64,000 nucleotides of DNA. It comes from Terebella lapidaria (taxonomy: Eukaryota > Annelida > Polychaeta > Terebellida > Terebellidae). The first letter of the stretch is position 1. The number at the start of each line of letters is the position of its first letter. The stretch covers positions 11,989,177-12,053,176 of the forward strand of contig OX424566.1 of the NCBI GenBank assembly GCA_949152475.1. The letters are read 5' to 3'. The notes under the pieces were generated by a model, which made no database searches, was not told where the DNA came from, and saw only the letters and a list, made by a program, of their open reading frames with translations. This document shows, piece after piece, positions 18,811-56,600 of the stretch. Made by a program: the position numbers and the translations under genes.

Positions 18811-21800
18811 TATCTCGGAAACGGTGCATCGTAGAGCGAAACGGAGCTCAATTTCGGCCTCCTGACACTAGACAAACTAGTCTAGGGGGTATCTTGGGTC
18901 AAACGACCCCTGGTGTCGAATTTTTTCTGCCGACTCGGCACTTCCTGTTTGGCCGTATCTTGGAAACGGTGCGTCGTAGAGCGAAACGGAGCTCGATTTC
19001 GGCCTCCTGGCACTAGACAAACTAGTGTAGAGGGTATCTTGGGTCAAGACGACCCCTGGTGTCGAATTTCTTTTCGCCGACTCGGCACTTCCTGTTTGGC
19101 CGTATCTCGGAAACGGTGTGTCGTAGAGCGAAACGGAGCTCAATTCCGGCCTCCTCGCACTAGACAAACTAGTCTAGTGGGTATCTTGGGTCGAGACGAC
19201 CCCTGGTGTCGAATTTCTTTTCGCCGACTCGGCACTTCCTGTTTGGCCGTATCTCGGAAACGGTGTGTCGTAGAGCGAAACGGAGCTCAATTCCGGCCTC
19301 CTCACACTAGACAAACTAGTCTAGTGGGTATCTTGGGTCGAGACGACCCCTGGTGTCGAATTTTTTTTCGCCGACTCGGCACTTCCTGTTCAGCCGTATC
19401 TCGGAAACGGTGCGTCGTAGAGCGAAACGGAGCTCGATTCCGGCCTTCTGGCACTAGACAAACTAGCCTAGTGGGTATTTTGGGTCGAGATGACCTATGG
19501 TGTCGAATTGATTTTCGCCGACTCGGCACTTCCTGTTTGGCCGTATCTCGGAAACGGTGCGTCGTAGAGCGAAACGGAGCTCAATTCCGGCCTACTGGCA
19601 CTAGACAAACTAGCCTAGTGGGTATTTTGGGTCGAGACGACCTATGGTGTCGAATAGATTTTCGCCGACTCGGCACTTCCTGTTCGGCCGTATCTCGGAA
19701 ACGGTGCGTCGTAGAGCGAAACGGAGCTCAATTCCGGCCTTCTGGCACTAGACAAACTAGCCTAGTGGGTGTTTTGGGTCGAGACGACCTATGGTGTCGA
19801 ATTGATTTTCGCAGACTCGGCACTTCCTGTTCGGCCGTATCTCGGAAACGGTGCGTCGTAGAGCGAAACGGAGCTCAATTCCGGCCTTCTGGCATTAGAC
19901 AAACTAGCCTAGTGGGTGTTTTGGGTCAAGACGACCTATGGTGTCGAATTGATTTTCGCCGACTCGGCACTTCCTGTTCGGCCGTATCTCGGAAACGGTG
20001 CGTCGTAGAGCAAAACGGAGCTCAATTCCGGCCTTCTGGCATTAGACAAACTAGTCTAGTGAGTATTTTGGGTCGAGATGACCCCGGTGTCGAAATTATT
20101 TTCGCCAACTCGGCATTGCATGTTTTTTCTGTATCTCGGAAACGGTGCGTCGTAGAGCGAAACGGAGCTCAATCCCGGCTCCTGGCACTAGACAAACTAG
20201 GCTTATGGGTATTATGGGTCGAGACGACCCCTGCTGTCAAATTTTTTTTTCGCCGAATCGGCACTTCCTGTTTGGCCATATCTTGGAAACGGTGCATCAT
20301 ACAGGGAAACGGAGCTCAATTCCGGCCTCCTGGCACTAGTCAAAGTAGTCTAGAGGGTATCTTGGGTCAAGACGACCTATGGTGTCGAATTGATTTTCGC
20401 CGACTCGGCACTTCCTGTTCGGCCGTATCTCGGAAACGGTGCGTCGTAGAGCAAAACGGAGCTCAATTCCGGCCTTCTGGCATTAGACAAACTAGTCTAG
20501 TGAGTATTTTGGGTCGAGATGACCCCTGGTGTCGAAATTATTTTCGCCAACTCGGCATTGCATGTTTTTTCTGTATCTCGGAAACGGTGCGTCGTAGAGC
20601 GAAACGGAGCTCAATCCCGGCTCCTGGCACTAGACAAACTAGGCTTATGGGTATTATGGGTCGAGACGACCCCTGTTGTCAAATTTTTTTTTCGCCGAAT
20701 CGGCACTTCCTGTTTGGCCATATCTTGGAAACGGTGCATCATACAGGGAAACGGAGCTCAATTCCGGCCTCCTGGCACTAGTCAAAGTAGTCTAGAGGGT
20801 ATCTTGGGTCAAGACGACCTATGGTGTCGAATTGATTTTCGCCGACTCGGCACTTCCTGTTCGGCCGTATCTCGGAAACGGTGCGTCGTAGAGCAAAACG
20901 GAGCTCAATTCCGGCCTTCTGGCATTAGACAAACTAGTCTAGTGAGTATTTTGGGTCGAGATGACCCCTGGTGTCGAAATTATTTTCGCCAACTCGGCAT
21001 TGCATGTTTTTTCTGTATCTCGGAAACGGTGCGTCGTAGAGCGAAACGGAGCTCAATCCCGGCTCCTGGCACTAGACAAACTAGGCTTATGGGTATTATG
21101 GGTCGAGACGACCCCTGTTGTCAAATTTTTTTTTCGCCGAATCGGCACTTCCTGTTTGGCCATATCTTGGAAACGGTGCATCATACAGGGAAACGGAGCT
21201 CAATTCCGGCCTCCTGGCACTAGTCAAAGTAGTCTAGAGGGTATCTTGGGTCGAGACGACCCCTGGTGTCGAATTTTTTTTCGCCGACTCGGCACCTCCT
21301 GTTTGGCCGTATCTCGGAAACGGTGTGTCGTAGAGCGAAACGGAGCTCAATTCCGGCATTCTGGTGCTAGACATAGTAGTCTAGAGGGTATCTTGGGTCG
21401 AGACGACTTCTGGTGTCGAATTTTTTCTCGCCGACTCGGCACTTCCTGTTTGGCCGTATCTCATATCAGCGAAACGGAACTCAATTTCGGCCTTCTGGCA
21501 CTAGACAAACTAGTCTAGGGGGTATTTCGGGTCGAGACGACCCATGGTGTCGAATTTATTTTAGCCGACTCGGCACTTCCTGTTTGGCCATATCTCGGAA
21601 ACGGTGCGTCATACAGGGAAACGGAGCTCAATTCCGGCCTTCTGGCACTAGACAAACTAGTCTAGTGGGTATCCTGGGTCGAGACGACCCCTGGTGTCGA
21701 ATTTTTTTTTGCCGACTCGGCACTTCCTTTTTGGCCGTATCTCGGAAACGGTGAGTCGTAGAGCGAAACGGAGCTCAATTTCGACCTTCTGGCACTAGAC

Positions 21801-22460: not shown

Positions 22461-22823
22461 AAAGATGCCTAAGGGCGGGGTATGTCACTTAAACTTTGAC
22501 CACGGACAGTTACAGAGTCATCATGGTTCTAGACACGGTCTCTTAGGTATATGTTAGGTAGGAATAAAACTCACACGAAATGCCCCAAGGCATCTTCAGG
22601 CCTTGACGTCTAGTTAAAGTTTAATTACTGATATTGCTAGGGTAATGATGTAAAAACAATTAATGTTTGGAATTTTGGTCTGTCTGGGATCGAAAACAGT
22701 TCTCGAGCAATAGGTTTCGACTGCATCATCAATTTACTGCGCCTGGTAAAACCAAAGTTCGTGTTTGACGAATCCGGGTCTCGATACTCGCCGAAATCCA
22801 GTCACTGCCAACCTTCAGAAAAC

Positions 22824-23543
22824 ATGGCGGCGGCCGCAAACATGCGACTGTTTTTGTCAAACATTTCTTCCCGGCTCACGTCAAATACTTTGCTATCGAA
22901 ACTGACCAACATATCGCCGTACACTTTGACGTCTGTACGTCACAGCCGGTACGATTCACGACATCTAGATCCGACGATTGACCGATACGAACTTGACACT
23001 CCTTTGGCTGAGGAAGACCCCAGAAGATTTCAGCCAATCAAAGCCGCTCTTAACGAACACACCTCCTCTTCGACTTACGATCCCATAGTCGCGAAGTTTG
23101 TGCGAATGATGTTGCGTAGAGGGGACAAGCATGCCGCCAGACAGTGCATCGATAGAACTTTCGAACACATCAAGTTAATTCAGCTCGAGAAATATCACAA
23201 GTGCACTGATGAAGGAGAAAAACAGGATATCGAACTCGACCCATTGGTGATCTTCCACAAGGCGATCGAGAACTGTCAGCCGCTGTTGATCACACAGAGA
23301 ACGAGACGTGGCGGAATAACTTACACGGTTCCTGTGCCGTGTAACCCAAGCTATAAAATGTACAAGGCCATGCGATGGTTGATTGACTCGTGTCGACTCA
23401 GTGAACATAATAATAGATTTTGGCACCACATGTCCAAAGAACTGATAAATGCGTCAAACAACCAGGGCAAAGCGATACGGAAAAAACAAGACTTGCATAA
23501 ATTGTGCGAGGCAAATCGGGCTTATGCTCATTACCGCTGGTAG
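22824..23543 (+). CDS. MRPS7: Mitochondrial small-subunit ribosomal protein S7 (uS7m)
   Basis: uS7m binds the 3' domain of mitochondrial 12S rRNA and helps assemble the head of the small ribosomal subunit in the matrix. The frame encodes 239 aa from ATGGCGGCGGCC at 22824 (human about 242). The basic, Ser/Thr-rich N-terminus (MAAAANMRLFLSNISSRL) fits a mitochondrial presequence. Family matches include SSTYDPIVAKFVRMMLRRGD, FEHIKLIQLEKYH, the linker GGITYTVPVPCNP and the C-terminal NNQGKAIRKKQDLHKLCEAN ending in AHYRW. The gene is a single exon and starts about 210 bp after copy A of the repeat element. In-frame codons upstream of 22824 lack an ATG. Confidence 0.95.
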   Translation: MAAAANMRLFLSNISSRLTSNTLLSKLTNISPYTLTSVRHSRYDSRHLDPTIDRYELDTPLAEEDPRRFQPIKAALNEHTSSSTYDPIVAKFVRMMLRRGDKHAARQCIDRTFEHIKLIQLEKYHKCTDEGEKQDIELDPLVIFHKAIENCQPLLITQRTRRGGITYTVPVPCNPSYKMYKAMRWLIDSCRLSEHNNRFWHHMSKELINASNNQGKAIRKKQDLHKLCEANRAYAHYRW

Positions 23544-35588: not shown

Positions 35589-37690
35589 GGTGGTTTAATG
35601 GCCTCAGATATTTGCCACAATGTCTCCTCGGGCAAATAGTTGTCGAACGAGCCAAAAAACTGCATGATTTTGTCCTTCCTCGTGAAGTCGTAGTCACTGG
35701 AAATAAATATTGTATCTTAACATTTCAACTTCACAGCTTATGAATAGTTTCTTCTCATGATGATAATCTGTTTATTATTTGGAAAAACAGAAACTGTACA
35801 AATGATCCAATTCATTTAAGATTCCAGATTTCAAGCTGTCAAAAAAACTTAAATACATTTGACGACAAAATACCATACAAATTGAGAGGCAATCAGATAA
35901 ATTCCCCATGGCCATACATACCACTTTCGGAAACGTCGCATATGGTCGAGAATGTTGAACTGTTGCCAGCGTTTGACAAAATTTACGGAGCCGTCCGGAA
36001 GCCAGTCCTTGTTTCCGACGTGAACGAATGTCAGATCTTGTAACACGAGGCCTCTGTCGATCGTTGGGGCAGAAAAGCGGAAGAACATTTACGATAAAAA
36101 TTAAAATTTGCATTATTCTTGTCAAACACTACGCGGGTAGGATTTAGAATAGACATGTACTAGTTATGCAATGTACTAGGAGTATGTCCGAAAAATTCTA
36201 GTTTCTTAATTTTCAAAACTAACTAGATCAGGGTAAATGTAGTAAAAGAAATCGTCACATCATAGGCATTCATGGTAGTGAGTATTTGACATTTTTCAAT
36301 TTGCCATGTGTATGAGCCATTACTTACATGTACGGAATACAAGGGGGCTCTGTATCGGCTAATCTCAGTCGGTACGTCCTGAACCCGTGCGTGTTGTCGA
36401 TAAGCTGGAAATACTGTGATAACATCTGAAAAACATACAGGTTAACATGTTAAAATTTCTTAAATGTATCACAGGCTATAAGTGATTCAAGTATCTTTCA
36501 ATAAACATTTATTGAGCAATTAACAAATTTTAAATCTCACATATCAAACCATTGGCCTGATAAAGCAGCTGCATGGATATTATCTTTATTACATGGTATG
36601 GTTACATGCACATATACATAGTTCACCAGAGAATGCTTTATAGCTACGAAACGTAATACTATAACTTGTTTCTGTGTCTACCTCTGAATGTTGTTTCTGC
36701 CAATCAAGGCGCGCCAGTGGTGAGGATGATAACGCCGATAATATCGCCAGATACGAGTTAAAATTGTTGAACTTTTCCAGGTACTGCAAGGTGTATACAG
36801 AACAAGTGGATGATTATTAATTATTCTCTTGAAAATTCAACATCTACAGTGGAGCCTTCAATGGGACGGTTGAACATACATGTAACAAAATTGATATCTG
36901 TATATTATTGTTCACCCTGACCCATGCAATTACTGAATCTGTAAATTCTCTCTTAAGAGAATGACCGTTACAGTTTAGCAGTGATGATCGCAAACAAACC
37001 CGCATAATTTTGATGAATTTGACGAGGCAATGTTCACGATCTCTTGGGTCTTCCTGCTCGAGAATCCGTGTCCGACACCTGAGGAACGAAAACATACAAG
37101 TGAATCCAGTGAGGGCAGATTTGAACACTAAGACTGGTTACCATCGTAAGCATGTAACTATGGTAATGGATGAACCCAGTGCAGTGTTTAAAAGGCGAAA
37201 GAATTATTGTGAAATTTATGCCAGTGTATTTGTCATGACAAGCAAGGCGCAATGCCAAACATCGCAGTTGTCTGTAATTTGTTGTATGCGATTTTTTTCA
37301 ACTATGAATCAACGTGAATAGGGAAATAAGTAAGTTATAGTTAACCTTTTGATACAAACAGTTTGAAGACACCCACCAGTATGACATTTTATTGAAGTGT
37401 TCGGTGAACATGGTCAGGTTCGGGCTGTGTTCCTCGTTCTGTTCTTTGGCCCACAGCAACACTTCTGGAATCTTTGACAAGAAGCAAAATCCACATGAAA
37501 ATCAGTTCATTAAATTTCCTCGACTTTTACTGCTAGATTTCAAAATTTCCATCCTATATCATGTACATGTTTCCTTAGGAGAGGAAATAAATATTGAAAT
37601 CACACCTCAATTTTCTGAAAGAGTTCTGCGTCAAGCAGTGTCAGTTGTTCGGCAATATCCTGAGACTTGAAGTTGAATAGACTGTATTGT
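35567..37690 (-). CDS. RAPGEF1: RAPGEF1 CDC25-homology (RasGEF) catalytic block, seven exons
   Basis: These seven exons encode the catalytic exchange domain. They begin with FKSQDIAEQLTLLDAELFQK and IEIPEVLLWAKEQNEE, pass through NLTMFTEHFNKMSYW, LVKFIKIMR, FNNFNSYLAILSAL and EPPCIPY, and reach QDLTFVHVGN and RWQQFNILDHM. This order and these words are the hallmarks of RasGEF domains, and the closest memory match is C3G. The last exon ends KPPKRTLYK with TAA at 35569-35567, slightly different in tail from human C3G. A perfect 26-bp tandem duplication (35537-35562 and 35563-35588) covers the final codons and stop, leaving the protein end intact. Confidence 0.95.
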
Positions 37691-40600
37691 CTGCAAGTAA
37701 TTCAAGAATACATTGTCAAATGTAAGTCCATAGCTTCATACTAGTAACTATTTGAAGCACAACATATATACTCGGATTTTTCTAACTCGTTTACACTGTT
37801 TTTCGCTAATATTTTTGTGATGCTAAACGCTATCATTCTATAACTTGGCATACTTCATCTGGGAGTCAAACGGCAATTTTCTACCAAATTGCAGACAGCT
37901 ATCGCGAAAATTGAAAAAGTTGGCAATCTACCTCAATGTTAAATTTCAGCCCAGAACGGGATCTCGAGAATCTGAGCATATTCGAGGAATTGGTCCTGTT
38001 TACATCCATCAGGATTCAAAATATTTTTGTAACTTTGAACCAGAAGATACACTGGGGTGTATTTTACACAAACATTTTCATTTTGAAACATTGCTCCGCT
38101 ACAAAACCGAGCAAATACACAAAATTGTATGCGGGCCCAGAAATTAATTAATATGGCTAAAGTTAACATTGGGGTAGATTGCCAACATTTTCAATTTTCG
38201 TGATAGCTGTCTGAAATTTGGTAGAAAATTGCCGTTTGACTCCCAGATGAAGTATGCCAAGTTATAGAACGATAGCATTTAGCATCACAAAAATATTAGC
38301 GAAAAACAGTGTAAACGAGTTAGAAAAATCAGAGTATAAGCTTTCAAATTAATTTTAAGCATTGGGTATTGACAGGATCATTACAAATTCATTAGCTCTC
38401 TGAGTATTATTCATTTACATAATATTGCAAAAGTCAAGACAAATAGGATAACAGAAATAGTACGCCTCTAAAAACTTCAGTAGCCAACAATATAACCAAC
38501 ATGTACATGTATCGACATCATGGACATTCGGCATCCTACGCTCTCACAGATAAATTCTGCCCTCGTTTAAATAACTCGACAACCTCACAGACCTGGTGGA
38601 TACTTTGTGTCGCGGCCAGAGATCCTTTTGGCTCGACTCGCGGAGTTTTTGGAGGTAGGCACACTTTTCCAGGACCTTGCTGCGGAGAACTTTGGCAAGT
38701 GTCAGCTCCCCGTCGCACAACATTTGGAACACGAGGTTCATCAACATTTGGATCAGCTTCTCGTCAACCTCCGTACTAAGAGCATAAAAGAAAGAAAATG
38801 TGGAATATTTGGAAAAAATCATATTTATATGATGATTCACTGGGTAGTGTGTACAATGCAACTTTATTTTTTTCCTTTACTTTTAAAATTTACGACAATT
38901 ACAATCAAGCTAGTATTTTACTTATTCCATATTTCTATTATAATGTCTACAGTATTTTTTAAACATCACTTGTAAACATCACAGCAACTATTCACGAGGT
39001 AAATCCGGGTTTCTTTCAATAGGCAAAACCACAATGAACCACCATGTTAGTATGAGACAGCCTCCAATCATAAAACACTATAAAACAGATTGACATTTTT
39101 ATCACTCCATAGTGCACTTCTAATACCATGAATACCAAGATATCATAAGATGCCATAGTCTTCAATTTTATGACTGACAGGTAGTGAACACTTAATATTT
39201 AACTGGATTATGAATTAATCCCATCCGCGCTAAACCCAATTAACACCTATCAGCATGAGAACTGTTAATTACCCTTTTTAATGACCCATGTAATAAGTGA
39301 TTTACACCATCAATCTATCAACTGCTGAAGAAACATTGCCCTACTATAATATGATATCAATTTATTATCATTTTGACACGTGAATTATCATGATTTTGTC
39401 AATGGCATGTCATATATTTGATTTCTTTAGTATAAAAGCTCTGGAGGTTTTTGGAAAACTTCATATTCCCACAACCAGTGACAACAGCGAAAACCACAGA
39501 AAATCAGCGATCTTGTAAAGTTTAAAGTATATATCTTGCATTGGAAGCGAATATATTGAAAGCATATAATACTATTTGTTGGTATGTATCAGAAACCTAT
39601 TCTTAGTCTTACTAAGTGTGAGTCACACAATTGCAATGAGTAGATCTTTCATGATGTAACATGTTTTAAATGTGTTAAAACCAAGTAAAACTCTTAAATT
39701 TTAAATAAATTGTTGCTTTGACAGTTTACTCATAATTGGATATTCCCACTTTGGAGAAAGGCTCAATTGCACATAAGCACAAAGAAAGTTTGAGCACAGT
39801 TTGCAGCAGTTCTATAATCTATCAGCTAAACTGTATAATCACCTATCTTGATTGGCAATTACGACTGAAATCTATCAGACCCCTCTGCTATATAAATGCA
39901 TTTTCACTGACCAAGTGCAAGCAGTTCAGCTCAATTGACAAGCAATACATAGTATACTATATGAACATTACTGACTGAACTGCTCATAGAACATCTTTCC
40001 ATATTCCTTACAGCCAAATACCAACAGTAGGAATATTTACAAGAGACAGTTGGAATCGAGAATCACTCAAAGCGATCTACTTGACACACACCAAACAATG
40101 GCATCTGTACTAGACCTGACGACCTCCACCTCAGCCGATCAAGAAGTCACCTTAGACGACCTCTGGCAGACTTTAGATGAGGAAGCGGCCAGCTGCAGCA
40201 GCGAGGGCACTTCCGCCCTTGACAACTTTGACTTTGCGGAGTTCGCAGAGGAAACACTTGGGGAGGATCCGTTCCTTCTCGGCTCACAGAGTCCGGACTC
40301 CGGGATTCACTCTGAGTTGTTGGACGAGTCAAAACAGTCGCGCTCAGTCAGTCCGAGTACATGTAGTGATGTATCCAGCGTAAACCAAAGCCTGCAGTCG
40401 AAGCCGACAGCTGAGCTTGAAGTTGTTGACCTGACACCAGCCAATCAGCATGCAGTACCGTCACACGCCCCTTACAGTGGGCCACACGGCTTCGAAATCG
40501 GCTTCCAGCAGCAACGAACAGAAACCAAAGCCACCACTTGGATGTACTCAGAGCAACTTCAGAAACTCTTCGTGAGAATGGGAACAGCTTGTCCCGTTCG

Positions 40601-43600
40601 CTTCAGAATGACATCCACTCCGCCCAACGGGGCAATCATCCGAGCGATGCCGGTCTACGTCAAGGCGGGAAGCATGCAAGAAGTCGTTAAACGCTGCCCG
40701 AACCACAGTGCTGGCAGTGACTTCAACGACAACCATCCAGCCCCTACACATCTCGTCCGCTGTGAGCATCCATTCGCAAAATACAATGACGACCCGTACA
40801 GTGGCCGACAAAGTGTCCTCGTACCAAGCGAGACCCCACAACCCGGAGCCGAATGGGTTACCAACCTCTACCAGTTCATGTGCTTTAGCAGCTGTGTGGG
40901 TGGACTCAACCGTCGACCGCTGAGGCTCGTCTTCACCCTGGAGCTCGGGGGTCAGGTCCTTGGAAGACAATCCGTTGAAGTCAGGATCTGTGCCTGTCCA
41001 GGGCGCGACCTTAGGGTGGAGGAGAGGGCACTCGCCCCCGCGAATCCCGCACAAAAACGCCGAGCACCCTGGGCCAAAACCGCAACCGCCATGGACAAAC
41101 GACGGAAAGTGGACGGAAAGGAAGAGTTTACCCTCACAGTGACGGGTTTGGAGAATTATGAGCTGCTCTGTAAGATTAGAGACTCCCTGGAGATGGCAGC
41201 CACTATCATGGAAAACGTCAACACACCAGTGAGTTTGTGTCCAGGGAAACCCGGTGTAGCTCAGGTTGCCAGAGCAGGAGTCCAAGCTCCAAGGGCAGCA
41301 GTCCCAGGCCAGGCTCTGATCCAAGTGAAGCAGGAACCGCAACAGCCAATCAGGAAGCAGCAAGTCTCACAGCAACCAATCAGAGAACATGATATCAGAC
41401 CACAGCCAATCAGGGTCCAGCATGTTGTACAGCAGCCAATGAGACTGCACCAAATCCCGCACCAGCCATCGAACCAGAAACTCCATGGATTCCAGGCAAC
41501 AGACACCAACAACAATGGTAGTTATGACAACAGGAACTTGGCCAATCAAGGAGCACCAATGTCTCCCGCAATCCCACCTCCCGCTCACCTCAACTACTAC
41601 GTACACAACCATGTCCAGCAAGTGTACATCCCAAACGAAAAGTTGTGAACATTCTGGAACTACAATCTCTCACACTGTTCTTGTACATGTAGTTTTGTTG
41701 GCTATTATGTCCAACCATGTTAATTCTGTGTTCATTTCTTTTCAGCATTTCCAGCAATTTTGTACGTTTTGTATATATATTCTTTTGCATGCCCTTGATT
41801 ATGTTAATAAGATATTGTGGAACTATTTTACCATTTGAATATTTCATGGATATTTATGTTGTATATTTATTGATGACGTTATTCATTTATATATATTGTG
41901 TATATAATATTTATTTTCAATATTTAACACATATTTGTAAATAGAGTGAATAGACTTCTGTGATACATCATGTTTGCAAAATAAAACTGAAAAAGAAACT
42001 TTCTATTTCCTAATTGCAATCATAATGGGGTAATTATCGGAAGCTACATTTATTTGCATCTTTTTGTATGTAGACCCTACTTGCCATAGATACGAACATT
42101 CTAATGTCCGAGAGTAAATCAGGCATGACTAAAATCAATCAATATTCATCAGAGTTAGTCAGCGCTGACTACTAGGGTGACCAAAACAATGAATTCATTA
42201 TGCATGATTGATTTCGCCTGAAATAGGTGTGAAATGCAAGTCCAGTCTTTACTGAACGACCTGAACCAATTTGCAATATTCATCGGTACCCCGCTGATAC
42301 CCCCTACCCCACAAACACACATTAACAGGAAGTTTTAACCTGTTAAAACCAGTATTTATTACACACTTACCTCTATAATAAACACTTTTGGGTAATCTTA
42401 CCTGGCTTTCAAATAAGAGGGAAATTAATGCCAATAAAAAAACTAGACGTCAAGGCCTAAAGATGCCTTGGAGGCATTTCGGTGTGATGAATAATTTATA
42501 ATACTAGATATCGACGAAAATGAAAAATGTCGACAAATTTCGGGTCAAGGTCAAAGTTCATCCATAATACCCGCTAGACATGTTTGTCTAGGGCGACGAG
42601 TCCGAAAATACCATCCGTTTCGCTCTACGACGCACCGTTTCCGAGATATCGACGAAAACAAAAACTGCCGACTCGGCAAAAAAATTTCGGGTCAAGGTCA
42701 AAGTTAATCCATAATACCCCTTAGACATGTTTGTCTAGGGCGACGAGTCCGAAAGTAACGTCTGTTTCGCTCTACGACGCACCGTTTCCGAGATATCGAC
42801 GAAAACGAAAAATGCCGACTCAGCAAAAAAATTTCGGGTCAAGGTCAAAGTTCATCAATAATTCCCCTTAGACATGTTTGTCTAGTGCGACGAGTCCGAA
42901 AATAACGTCCGTTTCGCTCTACGACGCACCGTTTCCGAGATATCGACGAAAACGAAAAATGCCGACTTGGCAAAAAAATTTCGGGTCAAGGTCAAAGTTC
43001 ATCCATAATACCCCTTAGACATGTTTGTCTAGTGCGACGAGTTCGAAAATAACGTCCGTTTCGCTCTACGACGCACCGTTTCCGAGATATCGACGAAAAC
43101 GAAAAATGCCGACTCGGCAAAAAAATTTCGGGTCAAGGTCAAAGTTCATCAATAATACCCCTTAGACATGTTTGTCTAGCGCGACGAGTCCGAAAATAAC
43201 GTCCGTTTCGCTCTACGACGCACCGTTTCCGAGATATCGACGAAAACGAAAAATGCCGACTCGGCAAAAAAATTTCGGGTCAAGGTCAAAGTTCATCCAT
43301 AATACCCCTTAGACATGTTTGTCTAGCGCGACGAGTCCGAAAATAACGTCCGTTTCGCTCTACGACGCACCGTTTCCGAGATATCGACGAAAACGAAAAA
43401 TGCCGACTCGGCAAAAAAATTTCGGGTCAAGGTCAAAGTTCATCCATAATACCCCTTAGACATGTTTGTCTAGTGCGACGAGTCCGAAAATAACGTCCGT
43501 TTCGCTCTACGACGCACCGTTTCCGAGATATCGACGAAAACGAAAAATGCCGACTCGGCAAAAAAATTTCGGGTCAAGGTCAAAGTTCATCCATAATACC

Positions 43601-44607
43601 CCTTAGACATGTTTGTCTAGTGCGACGAGTCCGAAAAGAACGTCCGTTTCGCTCTACGACGCACCATTTCCGAGATATCGACGAAAACGAAAAATGCCAA
43701 CTCGGCAAAAAAATTTCGGGTCAAGGTCAAAGTTCATCCATAATACGCGACGAGTCCGAAAATAACGTCCGTTTCGCTCTACGACGCACCGTTTCCGAGA
43801 TATCGACGAAAACGAAAAATGCCGACTCGGCAAAAAAATTTCGGGTCAAGGTCAAAGTTCATCCATAATACCCCTTAGAAATGTTTGTCTAGGGCGACGA
43901 GTCCGAAAATAACGTCCGTTTCGCTCTACGACGCACCGTTTCCGAGATATGCAGGATGAATCAAGGATGACTCAGCAAAAAATTATTTTGACCTCTAGGT
44001 CAAAGGTCGTTTGAGGTATCGATCCCAAAATCAATAGGGTTCTTCCCTGGTGATATATAAACCTCCGTGCAAAATTCTGCAACTATTGCCTGAATATTTT
44101 TTGAGTTATCGTCCGGAAACCAAGTTCCTCGATTTCATCCTCACGGACCTCACGGACCTCGGAGCCGGATCAAAAAAAAAAGTACACCCTAGAGATGTTT
44201 GTCTAGGGCGACGAGTCCGAAAATAACGTCCGTTTCGCTCTACGACGCACGGTTTCCGAGATATGCAGGAAGCCTCAAGGATGAATCAGCAAAAAATTAT
44301 TTTGACCTCTAGGTCAAAGGTCGTTTGACGGATCGATCCCAAAATCAATAGGGTTCTTCCCTGGTGGCATATGAACCTCCATGCAGAGTTCTGCAACTAT
44401 TGCATAAATATTTTTCCAGTTATCGTCCGGAAACCAAGTCTTAAAATTAGCCTTGATTTCATCCTCACGGACCTCACGGACCTCCGATCCGGCTCAAAAA
44501 GAATAGGGTTCTTCCTCATATCATTTCTGACTTGCGGTGAAAATTTGACAAGGATCCGTCAAGGCAATCTAAAGTTATCGTCCGGAAACCAAAAGTGGCG
44601 GAAGAAG

Positions 44608-44640
<33 letters not shown>

Positions 44641-47600
44641 CTGCTAAAACCATAAAGGCATTTCTGCCGAAATGCCTTAATTATTGGCACATTCTCTTAA
44701 ACTGGTCGTTCTATGCCCCTCAGACTCGGTCGTTCATAAGGGTTTCTTGACGAAACCTGAGCGAGTCAGTGGTCACTGAGAAATCTTTCCTGACGAAACT
44801 GTTCCCCCAGAACCGCCATTACTTTGTCCCTGATAGTTAGGCAGGGGAGGCGGGAGGGAAATCAGCGTGTTTATTATAGAGGTAAGTGTGTAATAAATAC
44901 TGGTTTTAACAGGTTAAAACTTCCTATTTATGTCCACACTTTGACCTCTATAATAAACACTTTTGGGTTATCTCAGAATAACCACAGGAGGTGGGCTAAC
45001 CCTTCCCTCACAATGTCATCACAGAGGCATAGAACACACTATTTCAGATGTTTAATGAATTTAGGGTTGCGAGTAAAACCTACTTGCAAGTAATTAAAGT
45101 GGACGGGAATTAATGAGAAGGTTTAATTCTATTCACGACAAATATTCATAAACAAGAACTGAATAGTACCTGGGTAAGAGAAGGTCGTCGGCGAAGGAGG
45201 GACCCCCGGCAGTCGCTTGCTGACGGTGGGCGAACCAAAAAACTTCTACCACCAAATAAGAGGGACAAACCCGTCCCCCGAGCCGACAACCGTCTGGCGA
45301 TCTGTGCGTATGTACATGTGCTCCCCAATCGAACAGTATCTACAGGCGGACCTTGCTTTGCGCCGCTACCACGGGTCCGAGGTGGTAGTGGTCGCCGTCA
45401 AACCACGTCAATTCCCTACAATAGAAAGAGACGAAAGTATTGTTAGAGGCCCATGTACAGGCCTTCATGACATCGGCAAGGGCAACATTATTCATGAACG
45501 CGAGTGATGACGCCAGAGCTCGCACATCATGCGCCTTCACTCGAAAGGAGCCCGAAGTTCTGGTGTTGGATCTGTCATAACAGAACAAAACACATTTCTT
45601 TACCCAGGAAGAGATCGTTGCAGCCCTGATATCTTTCTGAAACCCCTTCTTGAACGCAACGAAAAGTAACCGTTTCCCAACATGAAGCTCCCTCGTGCGA
45701 TTGACGTAGATGCGCAGAGCTCTGACGGGACACAATTTAGCATCCTCCTCCAAACCCGGGCCTAGGGAAGAGGTAAGGGAAGGGATGGTAAAAGTCATAG
45801 ACGGGGTCTGGGCTAGCTGAGTTTTAGCCAAAAAGGAAGGGATGACCCCGAGCTTAACCGCGGAGCCATCCTCCTTCCAGTGCACTTTGGAAAAGTCGAG
45901 AGCATGCAGCTCACTTCGCCTCTTCCCTGAAGCAAGGGCCAGGAGGAAGACCGTTTTAAAGGTCAACAACTTCAACGACGCTTTCTCCAACGGTTCGAAA
46001 GGTTCGGAAAGTAAGCAATTCAAGACTAGCGATAAATCCCAGTCCGGGACTGGATTTCGCGTTCTCGGCCTGTCGACAGCAAAACTGTTTAATAACGCGG
46101 ACAAACTCGCATCCTGACCAAAATCGACCCCCGTTTTAGGCTTAAGGGTCTTCGCGATATCGGTCCGGTACCCAGCAAGAGTGGACGGAGCCCTTCCCTC
46201 ATTAAACTTTTCCAGGAGGAACTCCGAGATCAGAGGGGCAGTGGCCTTGAAAGGACTAACCTTCCTGCCACGACACCAAGCACAGAATCGCGTCCACTTG
46301 GATTCGTAGACTGCCAAAGAAGATCGTCTATTAGTTCTGGCGATCCTCGCGGACACTTCTCTAGAAAAGCCCTTCTTTCGAAAACATCGCTCGACAAGAG
46401 CCACGCGTGAAGTTTCAGCGTGCTCGGAGCTTGATGGAAGATGTCGGACCGAGGCTGCTTGAGTAGATCCCAACGGTCCGGCAACGGAACTGGGTCGGCT
46501 GCTAACAACTCCAGAAGGTCCGGGAACCACGGCTTCTGGGGAAGCAGCGGGGCAATCAGGATCATTCTGGCGCAATGCGATCGGAACTTGGCCAGAACCT
46601 TCTCCAGGAGCACTGCCGGAGGGTACGCATACGCGAACATGGCGTCCCAATTCGCCGACAGAGCATCCACCTCGAGACACCACTCGTCGGGGATGGGGGA
46701 AACAAACATTGGAAGCTTTGTGTTCCACCTCGTGGCAAACAGATCGACTGTAGGCGAACCCCAGAGGTCGCACAAGGCCCGAAACACCACTGGAGACAGG
46801 GACCATTCTGTTGGCTGCACCTGTCCCCTCCTGGACAAGCGATCGGCTAGAACATTCATATGGCCTGGAATGTGACGAGCCCTGAGCAGAATTCGACGCT
46901 CGTGACACCAGAGAAGGAGGTCTATTGCGAGCCGGCACAGAGAAACCGACTTTGTACCCCCTTGCTTGTTTATGTAGGCCACGACTGTGGAATTGTCGGT
47001 GGCCAACAGCACAACTTGCTGAGAAAACTGACGTTCCCAATGCTGTAGCACCAGAAAGACAGCTTTTAACTCGAGGATATTGATATGCTCGTCCTGCTGC
47101 GAACGAGACCACAGACCTGAGACCTCGTGAGAGTCCCAGTGCGCCCCCCAGCCCTCCAAACTGGCATCCGTAAAGAGATGCCTGGATGGAGGCGGCTGGC
47201 GGAACGGCGCCCCTCGGAACAGGTTGACTGGATCCAGCCACCAACGCAAATCTCGAACCACTTCCGCCGACACCGGGACCAACTGAGACATGTCCCCGGT
47301 CGCCTGGGACCATTGAGAATGCAACTGGTGCTGAAGAGACCTCATGTGTAGGCGCCCTAATGGCACCATTTTCTCGGTTGAAGCCAGGGTGCCTATCAGG
47401 GACTGCCACCGAGACGCTGGCTGAGGGACCCGATCCAAAAACCCGCGGCACTGCTCTGATAACTTTAACCGACGCTCCTCGGTCGGGATAACAGATCCGG
47501 AGATAGTCCGAAATCGATAGCCCAGAAAGACGAAGTCTTGCCGAGGAGATAAGTCGGACTTTTTGGGGTTGATTTTGAAACCCATGGAATGGCAAAGATC

Positions 47601-50600
47601 GACCACCCACTGAGCCTGCCAAACAAGAGTCCGAGGGCAGTGATGCCTGATTAGCCAATCGTCCAGATACTGATACAGGACAATACCATTGCGATGAGCT
47701 AGTACCTGAAGCTCCCTCACGCACATGGTGAAAATCCAAGGGGCCGTGGACAGACCGAAAGGCAACGCCCGAAACTGCCAAACTTGGCCCCGATAGAAGA
47801 ATCTGAGGTACCTCCGAATGGACCGCCTCATCGGAACATGGAAGTACGCATCCTTCAGATCTATAGTTACCACCCACGCATTGAGGGGCATCGCCGAGCG
47901 AACAACCTCGGGTGTCTCCATCGTGAAGGTGGGTATGTGAAGGTAACGGTTGAGGGCCGAAAGGTCGATCACCGGCCTCCAACCGCCGGAAGCTTTGGGT
48001 ACCACAAACAGAATACTGTAAAATCCGGGGGAATGATCTGACACCGGTTCTACCGCTCTTTTGTCTATCATGGCGGAAATTTCGCTGACGAGCGCTTGAC
48101 GCCTTTCGGGATCGTGCGGAAGGGAAAAAAACCCTTGGAGAAAGCGTCAATGGGGGAAACTGAACAAACTTGAGGCCGAACCCCCGACGCAAGGTCGTGA
48201 CTATCCAGGGGCTGGCTCCCAGATCTCGCCAACGAAGCCAGAAATTGCTGAGACGCGCGCCTACAGGCTCGTCCGTACTCACGATATTTACGGAGCCTAT
48301 CGCGCCTGGTGACCCGACCATGCATGGAAGGTCCGGAGACAACAGCGAGGCACCTACCTGATTTCTTCTCCCCTGCCGGCTTGGCTGGGCTGGAGGGACG
48401 GCCTCGACCTCGGCCACCCCGACCACGTTGCCCCCCTCGCTGCGCGCCTGCAGGGGCCCCACGAAAGGGCTGCCCCAGAGCCTTACCCCGGCCACGACCT
48501 GACGAGGAAGCCCCACGACTCTGGTGAGATGGTTGCTGCTGCTGGGCGGGTTTCCGTTGCTGCTGCTGCGCAAGCATACGCGCCCAACGCTCCAGCGCCT
48601 GGGATTGACGGACCGAAGCATCAGAGGAGGCCTTCGCTCGTGCCCTATCCTCCTGCCGAGTCTTGACTTCCTCCAACTCCCGATGGACCCCCTCCGGAAA
48701 GAGGAAGGGAGAAGCAGGCCCTTCCGGCGGAAGTACAGGATGGAGTCTCAGGGACTGAACCAACTGGTCCGAGATCTTGAAGTCCGCCTTCTGCAAAATG
48801 GCATCTCTGCGCCATAACTCGGAGACCCACCACATGTGGGTATCGAGAGCCACCTTGTCAGCCACGGCTCGGCCTATCGATTGAATGAGGCTGATAGATC
48901 CATGGAGGGCCTCAGCGAGGTCGGACCTATCCAGCTGTTCATTGTTCAATACCTGGTCATGACAGGCCGTGAGGGCCAACGTAGAGCCATGCACCAGCCA
49001 ATCCATAGCTGAGTCTACGGCAACTCCCAAACGCAGCGACGCCTGCAGATCTGAAATCTGCGCCCACGGAAGGGAAATCGACTTCGGGACAGCGAACACA
49101 TCCTGCTCCTGAAGCCGCGAAGGCTCGACATCAAGCAAAGAGGAAGTGTAGAAATCCGTCACTCTGGGCCTTGAGGGATACGCGCCGACATGTGTGCGGT
49201 TCTTCTTAACCGTGTCCTCGATCCGCGAAGAAAACGAGTTCCGAACCCCAGGAGCCAGGGGGAAACCTAAGGGCATCTCTAGGAACCCTGGGCTGCTGTA
49301 GGTCCCGCTCAGTGAAGGACTTCGCCTTCTTCGCTGGAGGAGGGGAATCAGAACGTGGTTGAGGCCACTCCTCTCCAGACAACCGACGCACAAAATCCAA
49401 CTTGTCGGCCCATGGGCGCTTGAAGGGATTAGTAGGATCCTCCTCATCCGCCGACTGCGAGTCTTCCTCGCGCTGGCGCTTAGGTACCAGTAAACGAGAA
49501 GTGCTCGGCTGAGGTCCCTGTAAAGGAACAATGCCATCCTGCTGCACCGAAACGGGAACCACCTCAGAACCCTCCGAAGGAGAAGACGTAGCAAAAGCTG
49601 GCGGCTGACAACGCTGAACCTCTGGGACCCTAGGAGGCCGTGACAAAAGGCTCTCCAGCCTGCCCAAGAAGTCCTCCCGCATAGTAGCCATCTCCGTCCT
49701 AAACTCCTCCTTAGAGATATACGAAGGTGGGGATTCAGCTACAGAATGGTACACTGTGGAAGCCGGAGAAGGCTTAGAGACTGGTGCCGGCGGAGGCTTG
49801 GAAACTGTAGGCAACGGCGGAGGCTTGGAAATCGTCGGAGCAACCGAACCCGCACTCGAAGACGTAGGCAAGGAGTCAAAAATGAGGCCGGGGTCCGCCG
49901 GGACTTCGCCCTGCTCAAAATCCTCCGCAACCTGCGGAAAAAAGGTAGGCGTTAAGGAAAATGAAACAGACTTCTTCCATGAAACAGATTCTGAAGAAGT
50001 GCCGTCAGTTTTTGACAAGCCACCAGGAAACGGTTGTTTCACAATAACAGTAGGAGATAAAGGATAGCGTGGCCCTGATCCCATTCCCAACTTTGAACTA
50101 CGTACGGGCCGCGAATCCCGGGTTCCAGCAAGCACTGGAGGGCTCCCGGGAACCGGAAAACGGGTCCCAGGAACCGACAATTGGTCCCAGAAACCGACAA
50201 CCGTCAGAACCCCAAAGGAAAAGGCTGACGGAAACCCAGGAGCCGAAAAGCCCATACCCGTGCCACCTGCACGATCCACAGGGTCCTCGGAGCCTGTGGC
50301 ATCGGAAGGCCGCTGTTCACAATTTGAGACGTTAACAGAGTTGAACTCCCGGTTAAGGGACCCCGGGAGCCGCATCCGAACGGAGCTCAAAGCCGGAAAC
50401 CGAGGAATCAGAGGCATGTTGCAGCGTGAGACCTTGGAAACCTTTAGAATCCTTGGAATCTTGGAATCCTTTAGCCCTGGCGGAACAGGGCTAAAGGAAG
50501 ACGACATCAAACCCGGTGGCTGATGTAAAAAACTCACGGCACTAACAGTACAACCCTGGTTCCCGGGAACCGGCAAACCGGGTCCCGGGAACCGTGAAAA

Positions 50601-53600
50601 CGGCAAGCTGAAAGACAAAAACATGTCTAAACTTACAGCAGAAATGGTACGTAGTAGACGTAAATCCTGCTCCTCGCGCCTCTGCGCGCTCTGCTTGTAC
50701 CTCGACTTTTTACTAGAAGTAGCTGAGGGACTGAGAGGGGGGATAGGTTTAGCCAACCGTTCTAGTTGCACCTGGCGCAGACCGTTGAGATAATCTGACC
50801 AATCGTCTACTCCCCACGAAGCGCACATCCCGCAACAGGCAGTAGGTCGGCACAATTCTCTACACATCCAGCAATTATGATGTAGTTCCGACTTGGGGAG
50901 AAACTGCTGGCACCCAGCGCACTTCATCTGGAAAGATAGCACAAACCAATGTGCGATGGGCGATAATAGGGGAAGAAACAGTAACCTAAGAGGATTTACC
51001 AGTTCCTCCCAAAAACACTAAACTACACTACTCTAAACTACTGTAAACAGTACAATAAAGCAGTAAAATAATCCTGAGATCCAAAGATCCGAGAAAGTGA
51101 TGAGAAAACTCCAATTGAAAGCCAAGAAGCTTGTCCTTCCAACAAAGCAGGGACAAACGTAATGGCGGTTCTGGGGGAACAGTTTCCTCAGGAAAGATTT
51201 CTCAGTGACCACTGACTCGCTCAGGTTTCGTCAAGAAACCCTTATGAACGACCGAGTCTGAGGGGCATAGAACGACCAGTTTAAGAGAATGTGCCAATAA
51301 TTTTTTTATTGGCATTAATTTCCCTCTTATTTGAAAGCCAGGTAAGATTACCCAAAAGTGTTTATTATAGAGGTCAAAGTGTGGACATAAATATATGTAT
51401 TCTTGTGTGCAGAAACAAAAACCTGTAACTATAGTAATCATCGGTATCCTCACCAGAGTTCGTTGACGACACGAGTCAGGAGGGCGAAGGCGTTTCTCGA
51501 CAGCTTTTTCTTGTTGATATCGTTCATGCGGCTGAACCGGTTGTATCGGTAGATCAGTTTCTCGATCAGTTCGTGAGAGGTCATCATCGATCGATACGTC
51601 GTCAGAAATGCTTCTTGGTACATGAAATCTGGGAAGGCAGATCGGGAATATGACTTTATGAACAGGGCACACGGCAGGTTTAATTTGTGTTTGTTTGCTG
51701 AACATGCTGAATTGTAACATGGAAATTTTCAAGGACGTTTTTGTAAGGGACCATCATCATCAGCATAGAATCCACAGACCTCGTTTTCCGGTGGTTGTAG
51801 CGTGTACGATGAGCGCATCTATCGAGCCACCTCTTAGATCTGGACCATCGTCTTCCTGTACAGAAGCAATAAAACAAATAGCATAATGGCTGATAAGCTC
51901 TAATGTTGACATAAAAGTCATGGGGTGAATTCTTTGCTAAATTGGCCACCTCACAGCTATCAACAATATCAGAAGCTCATTTAAGCATAAGGATATCTGA
52001 TTGTAGAAGCAGAGAATCTCATTTCATAAATGCTTTGGAAAATTGAGAAGTCATGATTCAACTAATACTTAGAAATATATAACACAAAATATATAACACT
52101 GACGGGTTTCTTGCGGACGAGATATTGCGACACGTCAATTTCGTCTAGGATGGACCAGTCACTGTCTGAGAATGCCGAATCTGTATCCTTGGCAACGTCT
52201 TTCTTGGGGTCGGGTAGCTGGGAGGGAGGGGGTTCTGGGGGTGTTGGGGAGGTGATGAGGCCTGAGATGGGGGCTGACAACCGCTTCTCACTGTCAAACG
52301 GGAACAGTAATCATTCAAAGTAATTTCTCAGATTTTTTTTTTTTTGGTCATGTATTTATTATTATTTTATCTCGATTTATTTTTCTCGAAAAGTTATGTT
52401 CCTGGCAATATCATAACACTTACAGCAAACATTTTACAGTGAATGAATCGTTACCTGTGCAATATTCACACGTACATTGTAACCTTAACAAACCTGTCTG
52501 GACTGCGGACTGCCTCGCCGTCGTTCCTCTGAGATTTATCGTCCTCCTCGGCCGTTTCGCTCTGCGTTGAGGACGTCATCGCCGGGTCAGATTGACGTGA
52601 TGACACCCCAGAGCTTGACGATGTGTTACTCTGACGATAAAACATTGGATAGGACATTACCATACGCCAAGTTAAAGGTCTATGACAGTATGCAAATCGC
52701 ATACATATCAACTTTATATTTTCATCAGCATGACTACAGACGTTAAGATTGCCATGGAACATAGGTAATGACCTGCCATGAACACCTCAATGTTGATAGC
52801 AAAGCAAACACAAACTACCGCTACTCAAAAAGATACTTTAGTAGAGTAAAGAATGTAGGAAGCGTATATTGACAAGATTTTTTCCTACATATTTCTCACA
52901 CCACTCAAATAAACAGGTTACATTTATATAGCACAGATTTATATATACACAGATGACGTACAGTTCGTTGTTTGGCGGGCAGGTCTGGAAGCCCGGCTAG
53001 CCCGCTCTGTATGGCCTCCATGTCTGGTATGTAGTCGAGGGGGGTGGGGGTGGTCTGCGCCCCAGTGCCGTCCTCGCTGGAACTGCCGCTGACTATCGAC
53101 ATGACGTCCGACGAGCGATGGGTGTCGATCGATGACCCGCTAATCACGGAGAGGTGGTCCGACCCGAGCGAACGGTCGCGCAAGACTGCATCACGGGCTG
53201 AGTGAACGCTGAATGTGTTGGATCGCGGGTACATCGGCATGAACACCTGGGAGGGGAAAATGTTGCAAGAAAAAAATTCCTCAGTCATACATTCTCTGCC
53301 GAAGTATTATCAAATATGTTATGAACTTATTAAATGCAGAAATTAGGAATATATAATAGGTTATTACTTTTATGTAGCCTATTACTATCATGTAACCCAT
53401 GCAGTTACATGGCTTCTTGAAGTAACTCATTTGATGCTGTGACCATGCAAAGTGCACACTTTTCAACGGTGTTCAGTATTCTTATATTCTTACATTTCCC
53501 AAGACATTGTCAGACTAATTCCTATATATTTAAAGTTCTCCGAACTTGGTGATTTCGCTGACCTCCATCTGGTGTTGCTGCCACTGCTCCTGATAGAAGT

Positions 53601-56600
53601 GCATGGATCTGACGGAGCGGCGCGACAGCTCCTGGACGGACGGCGTGGCTGACTGTCCAAACATCTGCATGTACTCCTCCACTGTAACCATAGCAACCAG
53701 ATATATATACTCTAACTGTAGTACTGTCTAAATGAATGTTTCTACTGTAACCATAACAACAGAAAGCATCCAAACATTGCATGTACCTTCCCAACCGAGA
53801 GCAATTAAATGTATGGATGTTTGAAAACATATATTTGAACATGCATGAATCTGCCAATGCAATATACTGTAATCATAGCAACATAATCATGACTGATTCC
53901 GGCATGTAAGATCTAAATTTGCAAGGCTTCAGTATGAGTAGTCCAATCATTTTTTTATTGCAAAGGAGATCATATGCTCTGCTACATGTAATATAGGTCA
54001 TGCTACTATCCAGTCAATAGTATCATTAACAGGTTTTGACACACTACAGTTTTGCACACTTACCATGGCGTTTTTTAGGTGGAAGCGGGGGTGGGTCGCC
54101 CTCTCCGTCCCACTCCACTTCTTCTTCATCGTCATCGTCGTCCCCGGCAACAAACGTCTCCTTGACGTACCGCATCTGTACGCCGGATGAGACGGTGGCA
54201 GTCTGCGTCGTGTACTGGCGTCCGCCCGACACGACCTTCTTCACGTTGTGGTTCTTGGTCATCGCCGCCGATTTTGCGGCGTTCTGAACGAATCGCCGCC
54301 CCTGTTCGGTCGTCTCCGACTTGGCAGTGGCCACGGAGAACGCACTCGAAGACGTGACCGTCGTTGTAGATTGTGATTCGTTGTTGGCGTTCATCTCCAT
54401 GGACATGTTGTCGTAGAGGGAAGGAGTTCGGTTCCGCATGACGACAGTTTCTGAGGGTTTCCGAGTTTTTTCAGGTAGAGGCGGGGCTTCCCCATCTTTG
54501 GTCATTGACATTGAAAGACTTTGTTTGTTGTCATAGAAACTGGCAGTATTTAGACATGCTTTATTGTCGTATACACCGGTACTGTCTTCGTAACCTCGCT
54601 GAACAAAGTGACTGATTTGTTTTGATACTTGCGAAATTTGCTCCTGTGTTTTCTTCTGTTGAATTAAGTCCGACGGGGAGTCGAAAAAGACTTTACTGGG
54701 CATGGGGGTGGGGGTGGGTGTTTCTGAGGGGGTTGGGGTTGCTGACGATGTGGACAATGTATCGCAGGTTGACGAAGAGGTATCAGACAGATCCTTTCCC
54801 CAGTGATTGTCGTAATGTGACAATCGCTGGCCGAATTTCCCGACAATTGGGACCTGGAGGGCGGATGATCCTGACAATACTTGAGTTGTATGTACTCCAC
54901 CGTGCGACGGACGCTCATCTAATAAACCTTCTTCCGATGTCGCACTTGCCGCGGAACTGATGCTACTAGCTGGCGACGGACAGCGGACTGGTGACACATC
55001 GGTCGCCAAGTGTTTACTGGGTGAATGGTCCTGGGCGGGATTCGGAGAGGTGGCTTCGGCAAAAGGATCGCCCGTGTTGTCGTAGGAGGAGTGCGCCCGA
55101 GATTTACTTTTCTCCGGAAGTGGCGGAGGGACATCGGGTTTTGAGGTATTGGACATTGACGTGAAAACATCATCGTCATCAGCCTGACTCAACTTACTGG
55201 ACCTGAGTGAGGAAAATTCGGGATTGGTTTGATCAACAAGAACATTTTTCACAATGATTCTCATATTTCAATCTGCTTGAACTTTTGAATGGTTATTCAT
55301 TTTCAAACACCTTAGAATACAATTTTCTAATAGTACGCATTTATATGTTTCGAAAAATTTAATTGATTCTGTTACTACTAGCACTATCTTCCGGGGAAAA
55401 TGGCCGTCATTCTTTGCTTAAATGAGTGCTCTAACTTCACACAATTATCTCTAATTATTTTAGAATCATGCACCATTATTTTACCATTCAAAGTAAGTCT
55501 AACTCACATCCTGAGAGCATAGTTTGGTGGCAGTGGTGGCTTCGGCGGTGGTTTTCCCTCTACGACATCCTCCTCTGGTTGCCTAGCAACAGACGAGGCG
55601 CTGCGCTGGAGGATGGTTTTTCCCTCGTCAAGAAGTTTTAATTCCTGCGGTGTGAGGGGGGTGGGGTCAGGGACGGCTGGCGACCGGCTGAAAGAAAATC
55701 CAATTGGAAAACGAATTCCTCAAAGGAAACACCAGAATATCCATGGAAATAGCAAGAGCGCTATACATATAATTAAATTATCCGGTAAACTTCAATGAGC
55801 ATGAATTCCCCAAACAGATAAACTTGTGTTGGATAATCTCATCTACAATGTAGAGAACAGGGGATTTTCAAAATGCACTTCATTCAAAGGAGTAACATGC
55901 AATTATCACTGGAATATTAACTTCTGTAATGTAATCATGACCGTTAATCATTATTATATCGTATTACAACAGCAAAGTAAGAAGAAACCTTTCGGATGTG
56001 GTCTTTTTGCGATGTGTCGGTGGTCGTTGTAGTGTTTTGGACATGACTGCGGGGGGTGCCGTGTCCCCGGCCATTAGCTTCTCTTTGGAAAGTTTCAGCA
56101 ACTCCTGGCAAAAAATGATGTTCATACCGAAAATTAGTTTGATCCGATGATAAGAATGGTAGATAGATATACCATTGAGACTTGAGCAATTGTGAGAAAC
56201 GAAGTGTTTTCAAATGACTTGATCATGTCAAATAATCTGCATGCGTATTCATAAGAATAATTATTATCTAGATACTGAACGATATCCAAACGTTTTCAAT
56301 TTCATCATAGAAACTGAAGTAATATCCTATATTTGATCCGAAAAACAGATTAATTACTGTAAACGAAAGAACGTAACTCACCCTAACACCTTTCTCCAGT
56401 GGGTCTATAAGCTCCTGAACACGACCTTTGTCCGGGTTCTGGTCAACTTTGAGGAAGGACTGATCCGCCCACAGAATCAAGTTACCCAGCATCTCATACA
56501 CTTGGTTGTAGGTCGAAGTCAGAAGCGTGCTGTACAATAGATAGATATGGTGTGAATCCTGTATGATTTGAAAGACTGTGATATTTTTGATATTTTCATC

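Follow-up and report, generated by a model that had tools for sequence, protein, structure and literature searches.

The p53-family gene and its host

We analysed a 64,000-nucleotide stretch of the genome of the annelid Terebella lapidaria (contig OX424566.1, positions 11,989,177 to 12,053,176), called the window below, which lies in a 40.6-Mb contig (C13) of an assembly of 761.6 Mb in 438 contigs. We found that a single open frame of 516 codons runs from ATG to TGA at 40098..41648 on the forward strand, as an earlier note made from the letters of this DNA had proposed. By its matches to the DNA-binding domain (DBD) and to the tetramerisation motif, both above the Pfam cut-offs, the predicted product is a member of the p53/p63/p73 family, and we are fairly confident that the gene is a functional p53-family retrogene of the annelid. 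The features of the gene and of its host are listed here by window position.

36682-36789, 37343-37468 and 37603-37659, minus strand: RasGEF-domain exons of the RAPGEF1-like host (domain matches)
39431..39438, plus strand: TATA-box-like TATAAAAG, 667 bases 5' of the ATG (sequence reading)
39582..40013, plus strand: candidate intron of the 5' untranslated region, GTATGT ... CCTTACAG (splice-like sites; three donor-like sites were candidates, of which one was picked)
39788..39834, plus strand: 47-bp conserved non-coding block, common to the copies on contigs C12 and C5 (shuffle test)
40098..41648, plus strand: single-exon coding sequence of the p53-family gene, 516 residues (open frame and Pfam)
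40152..40175, plus strand: activation/MDM2-type motif LDDLWQTL, residues 19-26 (motif reading)
40470..41030, plus strand: P53 DNA-binding domain, residues 125-311 (Pfam PF00870, 211.3 bits against a cut-off of 27, E 1.5e-62)
41097..41198, plus strand: P53 tetramerisation motif, residues 334-367 (Pfam PF07710, 37.8 bits against a cut-off of 20.7, E 1.3e-9)
41340..41471, plus strand: C-terminal repeats of about 10 residues, QPIxxQ type (by eye; in other clade A copies too)
41980..41985, plus strand: AATAAA polyadenylation signal (sequence reading)
51507..51644, minus strand: RasGEF_N exon of the host, covering 17-62 of 106 profile positions (2.9e-8)
54044..55264, minus strand: open frame with the proline-rich motifs PPLPEK and PPPLPPKKR, taken as a host exon (no Pfam match)

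Three domains had been named in the note, of which Pfam confirmed the DNA-binding and tetramerisation domains. The third, an activation domain, is suggested by the motif L19-D-D-L-W23-Q-T-L26, without a domain match; of the classic F19-W23-L26 this motif retains W23 and L26, with leucine in place of F19 (LxxxWxxL). The motifs RCPNH, FMCFSSCVGGLNRRP and RICACPGRD are kept as well, together with CFSSC and NRRP of the DBD; we take RCPNH, CFSSC, NRRP and RICACPGRD to be the zinc-ligand and DNA-contact motifs. The top sequence match in PDB was 7pc6 (323 bits), followed by p63/p73 chains at about 226-232 bits. No Pfam match to a SAM domain of the p63/p73 type was found in the window protein, and no second tetramerisation helix was visible in it by eye. 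A predicted structure from a seven-row alignment had a mean predicted local distance difference test score (pLDDT) of 35 and was set aside. For the meaning of the activation/MDM2 motif we follow PMC5061548 and PMC10303687.

Both the TATA box and the AATAAA claimed for the gene were located, at 39431 (TATAAAAG) and 41980. The coding part consists of one exon, as the note held; its description of the gene as intronless may not extend to the whole gene, which may have one intron in the 5' untranslated region (candidate 39582-40013). Removal of this candidate would strip all eight upstream ATGs. The window copy is presumably transcribed. An Rfam search of 38500-42500 gave 0 matches.

The gene is nested antisense in a RAPGEF1-like gene, because the RasGEF_N exon (51.5 kb) and the RasGEF exons (36.7-37.7 kb) flank it on the opposite strand. 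The name of the host rests on the order of its domains and on a presumed Crk-binding motif; the frame at 54044-55264 appears to resemble RAPGEF1/C3G. The remainder of the RasGEF_N domain (profile 63-106) was not found, with 45340-50900 not scanned frame by frame, so that at least one further host exon is expected between the two sets, on either side of the p53 gene. The antisense nesting claimed in the note stands, the intron being one of those between the RasGEF_N and RasGEF exons. Between the RasGEF_N and RasGEF exons lie the p53 gene and a reverse-transcriptase-bearing element.

Relatives elsewhere in the genome

Genome searches were run with the Pfam model and with three protein queries (window, C15 and C3a), and their results agreed. 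They revealed ten loci with the DBD in one unbroken frame on six chromosome-sized contigs: the window copy on C13, one copy each on C12, C4 and C15, and three each on C5 and C3. The coding exon is intact at eight of them. A DNA transposon of 1.69 kb, which has matching inverted ends and is flanked by a TAA duplication, interrupts the C4 copy, and C3c has a frameshift in the tetramerisation region; the frame of C12 stops a few residues short of the end of its relatives. C5b and C5c are identical across 2139 bp and are either a very recent duplicate or an assembly duplicate, and an N-terminal p53 fragment lies at C5:5207748, inside a 1848-bp perfect duplication. No large flanking duplication was detected around the window copy. 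The copies on C13, C12, C4 and C5 form clade A and the local trio on C3 forms clade B, all three members of which carry changes equivalent to human p53 G245S and G279S, the former a human cancer hot spot.

An intron-bearing relative, of the kind that the note had suggested looking for in the same genome, was also found. Alongside the ten single-exon loci we detected a sole intron-split gene of the p53/p63 type, called C1 here (C1:18759250 to about 18788234). Its activation-domain exon starts with an ATG at 18759250 and has the motif FDYLWKSL, its DBD and tetramerisation exons lie at 18778293-18780026, where four inner introns have GT/AG borders, and near 18788133 a weak SAM match of 18.7 bits falls short of the Pfam cut-off of 23. 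The C1 sequence was covered in part, and the first and last exons stand outside the gene model. Four C1 introns fall between the DBD and the end of the tetramerisation region, and the window frame is continuous through all four; we take their places to be those of human TP53 introns (near codons 126, 261, 307 and 332). C1 fits as the parent of the single-exon copies.

A tree was built from 203 DBD columns and 13 rows, in which human p63 and C15 form long branches. The nine copies of clades A and B group together at 94/93. C1 has the shortest branch, beside the solved p53-family DBD 7pc6 (0.077 and 0.11), and forcing C15 with C1 was not rejected in the approximately unbiased test (p-AU 0.30). 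One or a few retropositions, rather than ten, would fit the tree.

Upstream of the coding exon, a TATA box stands at -667 from the ATG in C13, -666 in C12, -679 in C5a and -674 in both C5b and C4. No TATA box was found at the corresponding distance in C5c, because its match to C5b begins only about 445 bases before the ATG. Donor-like sites occur at -513 to -544 in C13, C12, C5a and C5b (each selected from two to five in that copy), and the last 220 bases of these four copies each hold a sole acceptor with at least 9/15 pyrimidines, at -84 to -112. After removal of the candidate intron two of seven upstream ATGs would be left in C12, one of four in C5a and two of six in C5b. The upstream regions of C12 and C5b match from -955 to -77, beyond the TATA box, and those of C5a and C5b from about -1030. 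When 36 pairs of upstream regions were compared with shuffled sequences, C4 and C5c being left out, the pairs that exceeded the shuffles were all within clade A, plus C3b/C3c. For the 47-bp block, 0 of 100 dinucleotide shuffles reached the score of C13 in each of the three comparisons with C12, C5a and C5b. A promoter common with clade A was not found for clade B or C15.

Repeated elements surround several of these loci. A retroelement with a reverse transcriptase domain, presumably DIRS-like, occupies 45340-50942 on the minus strand of the window, and a relative about 70-71% identical to it adjoins the C5a copy. An element of 578 bp (37761-38338), whose inverted arms measure about 185 bp, also occurs beside C5a, in the C1 region and partly near C5b. 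A 147-bp tandem array at 42506-44683 adjoins the window gene, abuts the C5a unit as well and is found again after the C4 copy. This association raised the idea of a mobile unit that carries p53, which was set aside because the array is genome-wide (2234 first-look candidates, 40 scored). Near the C3 trio, at about C3:33232195-33235893 on the minus strand, lies a DBF4-like open reading frame of 1233 residues in a single frame (zf-DBF 8.5e-16), possibly another full-length retrocopy, of an S-phase regulator. A zf-DBF match in two pieces was found at C6:15384850-15385091, with weaker matches on C124 and C110.

Origin, maintenance and likely function

We propose that a spliced messenger RNA of C1, or of an ancestor of C1, was copied by reverse transcription and entered the genome in one or a few insertions; retroposition would thus be the cause of the intron loss. 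The new copy would have acquired a promoter with a TATA box and possibly also a non-coding 5' exon and one intron. The clade A unit would then have spread as DNA, giving the tandem copies on C5 and reaching other chromosomes, where one copy inserted in antisense orientation in the RAPGEF1-like gene, and clade B would be a second set, the local trio on C3. At the divergence of the family, a poly(A) remnant or target-site duplication is expected to have been erased. C12, C5a and C5b clearly spread as DNA, because their upstream matches run past the TATA box. The window copy probably arrived as DNA with its promoter as well, because it has the 47-bp block in common with them and because its TATA box and splice-like sites stand at similar distances. 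The retrogene origin proposed in the earlier note is supported by the intron-bearing C1; the locus itself is more probably a DNA duplicate of such a retrogene than a direct retrocopy.

The intact copies appear to be maintained by selection. The ratio of nonsynonymous to synonymous change (dN/dS) could be measured for six clade A pairs, namely those among C12, C5a, C5b and the part of C4 behind the insert, three of the six using the broken C4. In the DBD it was 0.14-0.16 by YN00 and 0.11-0.14 by NG86, and across all aligned codons 0.27-0.41 and 0.18-0.29, respectively; clade A copies are taken to be kept by selection because of the DBD values (0.11-0.16). For the window copy the DBD ratio was 0.055-0.075 on saturated dS, and because of this saturation we used differences by codon position. 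Comparison of its DBD with C12, C5a and C5b showed that the fraction of differing codons was 0.55-0.59 at position 3, 0.18-0.23 at position 1 and 0.10-0.11 at position 2. Outside the DBD the window copy is looser, with position 2 differences of 0.34-0.38 in the N-terminal part and 0.27-0.32 in the C-terminal part. We also simulated neutral change in 1000 frames each of C13, C5a and C15. At 0.2 or more changes per site every one of the 1000 frames acquired a stop; at 0.1 the number still open was 10, 3 and 23 per 1000, and at 0.05 it was 58, 29 and 136. With dN/dS well under 1 wherever it was measurable and no simulated frame staying open at 0.2 or more changes per site, the note's impression of a copy kept by selection is supported.

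Several results weigh against this account. All ten single-exon copies group only weakly (66/79), and forcing clades A and B with C1 was not rejected (p-AU 0.21). Two of the ten copies, C4 and C3c, are broken, and clade B has higher ratios, with a DBD dN/dS of 0.15-0.38 (0.35-0.46 across all codons) in its three pairs. Between the window copy and the others dS is saturated or cannot be computed (against C12, C5a and C5b, NG86 gives 1.7-2.4 over all codons and YN00 fails), which leaves only a rough dN/dS for this copy. Upstream, the window copy is only about 45% identical to its paralogues overall and significance is confined to the 47-bp block; its TATA box, donor and acceptor stand at similar distances, but in other alignment columns than those of the paralogues. 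The C5c copy is without the stretch holding the TATA box and donor. In addition, near-significant upstream scores occurred across groups (C3a/C15, 1/100 shuffles; C5a/C1 and C5b/C1, 2/100 each).

One competitor, which we consider unlikely though worth weighing, is direct retroposition of the window copy into its RAPGEF1-like host, with C1 or an expressed clade A retrogene as the source. The displaced alignment columns of its TATA and splice-like sites raise the odds of such an event and lower those of arrival as DNA. The low upstream identity and the lack of a detected large flanking duplication would also fit it, and the 47-bp block lies 3' of the TATA box, so that an unspliced retrogene messenger RNA could carry it. 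However, complementary DNA would not supply a TATA box at the common distance, and the block would be intronic under the candidate splicing. Far less probable is the idea that the copies are recent processed pseudogenes in which open frames persist by chance. The two broken copies would suit it, but the divergence is large and skewed to third positions, the DBD ratios are low (0.11-0.16 in clade A; 0.055-0.075, on saturated dS, in window pairs), and no frame stayed open among 1000 simulated at 0.2 or more changes per site, an argument that is strong for clade A. That a single exon is the old state in this lineage and that C1 gained its introns later is hardly credible, given that the C1 introns coincide with those of human TP53 and that C1 has the shortest branch next to 7pc6.

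The DBD, the tetramerisation motif and W23/L26 are kept, so proteins of the window type most likely act as tetrameric p53-type transcription factors, and the copies presumably bind DNA. The genome holds an MDM2 p53-binding exon at C4:7830305 (SWIB/MDM2 6.7e-6; PDB Mdm2 chains 2.5e-8). We found that the activation motif is FDYLWKSL in C1 and C15, LDDLWxTL/I in clade A and TDDLWKTL in clade B; F19 is thus kept in C1 and C15 and is leucine in clade A and threonine in clade B. Reports on other animals have described the zebrafish p63 activation domain, with leucine at all three motif positions, as binding MDM2 very weakly or not at all (PMC10303687), and elephant TP53RTG12, the one tested among retrogenes that carry W23G, as failing to co-precipitate with MDM2 (PMC5061548). 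Because F19 is replaced, and in the light of these two cases, MDM2 probably exerts weaker control over clades A and B. Human p63, which has low affinity for MDM2 though its motif is kept (PMC10303687), tells against this step, since the motif alone does not settle MDM2 binding.

We tentatively suggest that retroposition has given the animal a multi-gene p53 system, in which the seven intact genes of clades A and B would serve as constitutive or differently triggered factors beside an MDM2-regulated C1. If true, these seven genes would be a natural case of MDM2-free p53 tolerated by an animal. Alternatively, the main role of the intact copies, if expressed, might be that of dominant-negative or decoy partners for the C1 protein, not of transcription factors in their own right. 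The changes equivalent to G245S and G279S in every clade B copy would favour this, as would the partner models proposed for the elephant retrogenes (PMC5061548), but in clade A, including the window copy, the DNA-contact motifs and the activation-domain tryptophan are retained, and we think such a role improbable.

Other loci and known systems

Two further features were noted in the window. Long overlapping frames of a protein-level tandem repeat (RRLGTSCLAVSRKRCVVERNGAQFRP...) at 18913-21518 are probably a satellite, and a frame of 260 residues at 22761-23543 encodes Ribosomal protein S7 in one open frame (Ribosomal_S7 3e-36).

The 16-kb contig C438 is mitochondrial. Pfam matched nine of ten of its frames, namely nad4L, nad4, nad1, nad3, cox2, cox3, cob, atp6 and the presumed nad2 (a generic proton-antiporter match); the presumed nad6 had no Pfam match, and cox1 was found by a separate search. 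With nad5, atp8 and the ribosomal RNAs placed by position only, the order on one strand is cox1-cox2-cox3-(nad6)-cob-atp6-(nad5)-nad4L-nad4-nad1-nad3-nad2. ARAGORN with the bacterial code gave no transfer RNAs on this contig. Judged by conserved positions, AAA in COX1 fits Lys and AGA fits Ser, which tells against the echinoderm mitochondrial code. A second, weaker COX1-like match at C417:44633-46450, in two pieces with internal TGA codons, is either a nuclear copy or foreign mitochondrial DNA. The gene order of C438 fits the annelid arrangement of PMC2639372, a paper that places a non-coding stretch between atp6 and nad5 in Clitellata, Maldanidae and Terebellidae.

The window copy resembles intron-bearing animal p53/p63/p73 genes, represented here by C1, in its activation motif, DBD and tetramerisation motif. 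C1 has introns, the FxxxWxxL form of the motif and a SAM-like match, whereas the window copy is without coding introns, a SAM match or, by eye, a second tetramerisation helix. Duplicated p53 genes in Branchiostoma, Nasonia and Tribolium are likewise lineage-specific, with loss of the SAM domain from one Branchiostoma gene, but are described as single duplications (PMC5543598). A word search of that paper, on duplicated invertebrate p53, found no mention of introns or retrogenes. No invertebrate p53 retrogene family turned up in searches of the openly accessible literature on invertebrate, annelid and mollusc p53, with subscription papers mostly outside this range, and we claim no priority; those titles and abstracts on p53 retrogenes that we found concern elephants.

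The closest parallel is with elephant TP53RTG. There, too, many single-exon p53 copies stand beside one intron-bearing gene and the MDM2 motif is changed (W23G in the elephant, F19L or F19T in annelid clades A and B), and a single retroposition was followed by segmental duplication (PMC5061548). The elephant copies all contain stop codons, 14 of 19 are truncated to at most 88 residues, and their dN/dS of 1.20 does not differ from 1 (PMC9108310). In the annelid, by contrast, eight of the ten copies retain an intact coding exon and dN/dS lies well under 1; the phylum is another one and the origin presumably independent. Mice are said to pay for extra p53 once they carry more than about two to three additional copies (PMC5061548). 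Eight intact, constrained extra p53 genes would amount to a natural experiment on p53 dosage and escape from MDM2, and the family offers a case for how a retrogene can acquire a promoter and be propagated together with it. The adaptive value of p53 copy number would become testable outside mammals, in a family that is alike to that of the elephant by origin and opposite to it in fate.

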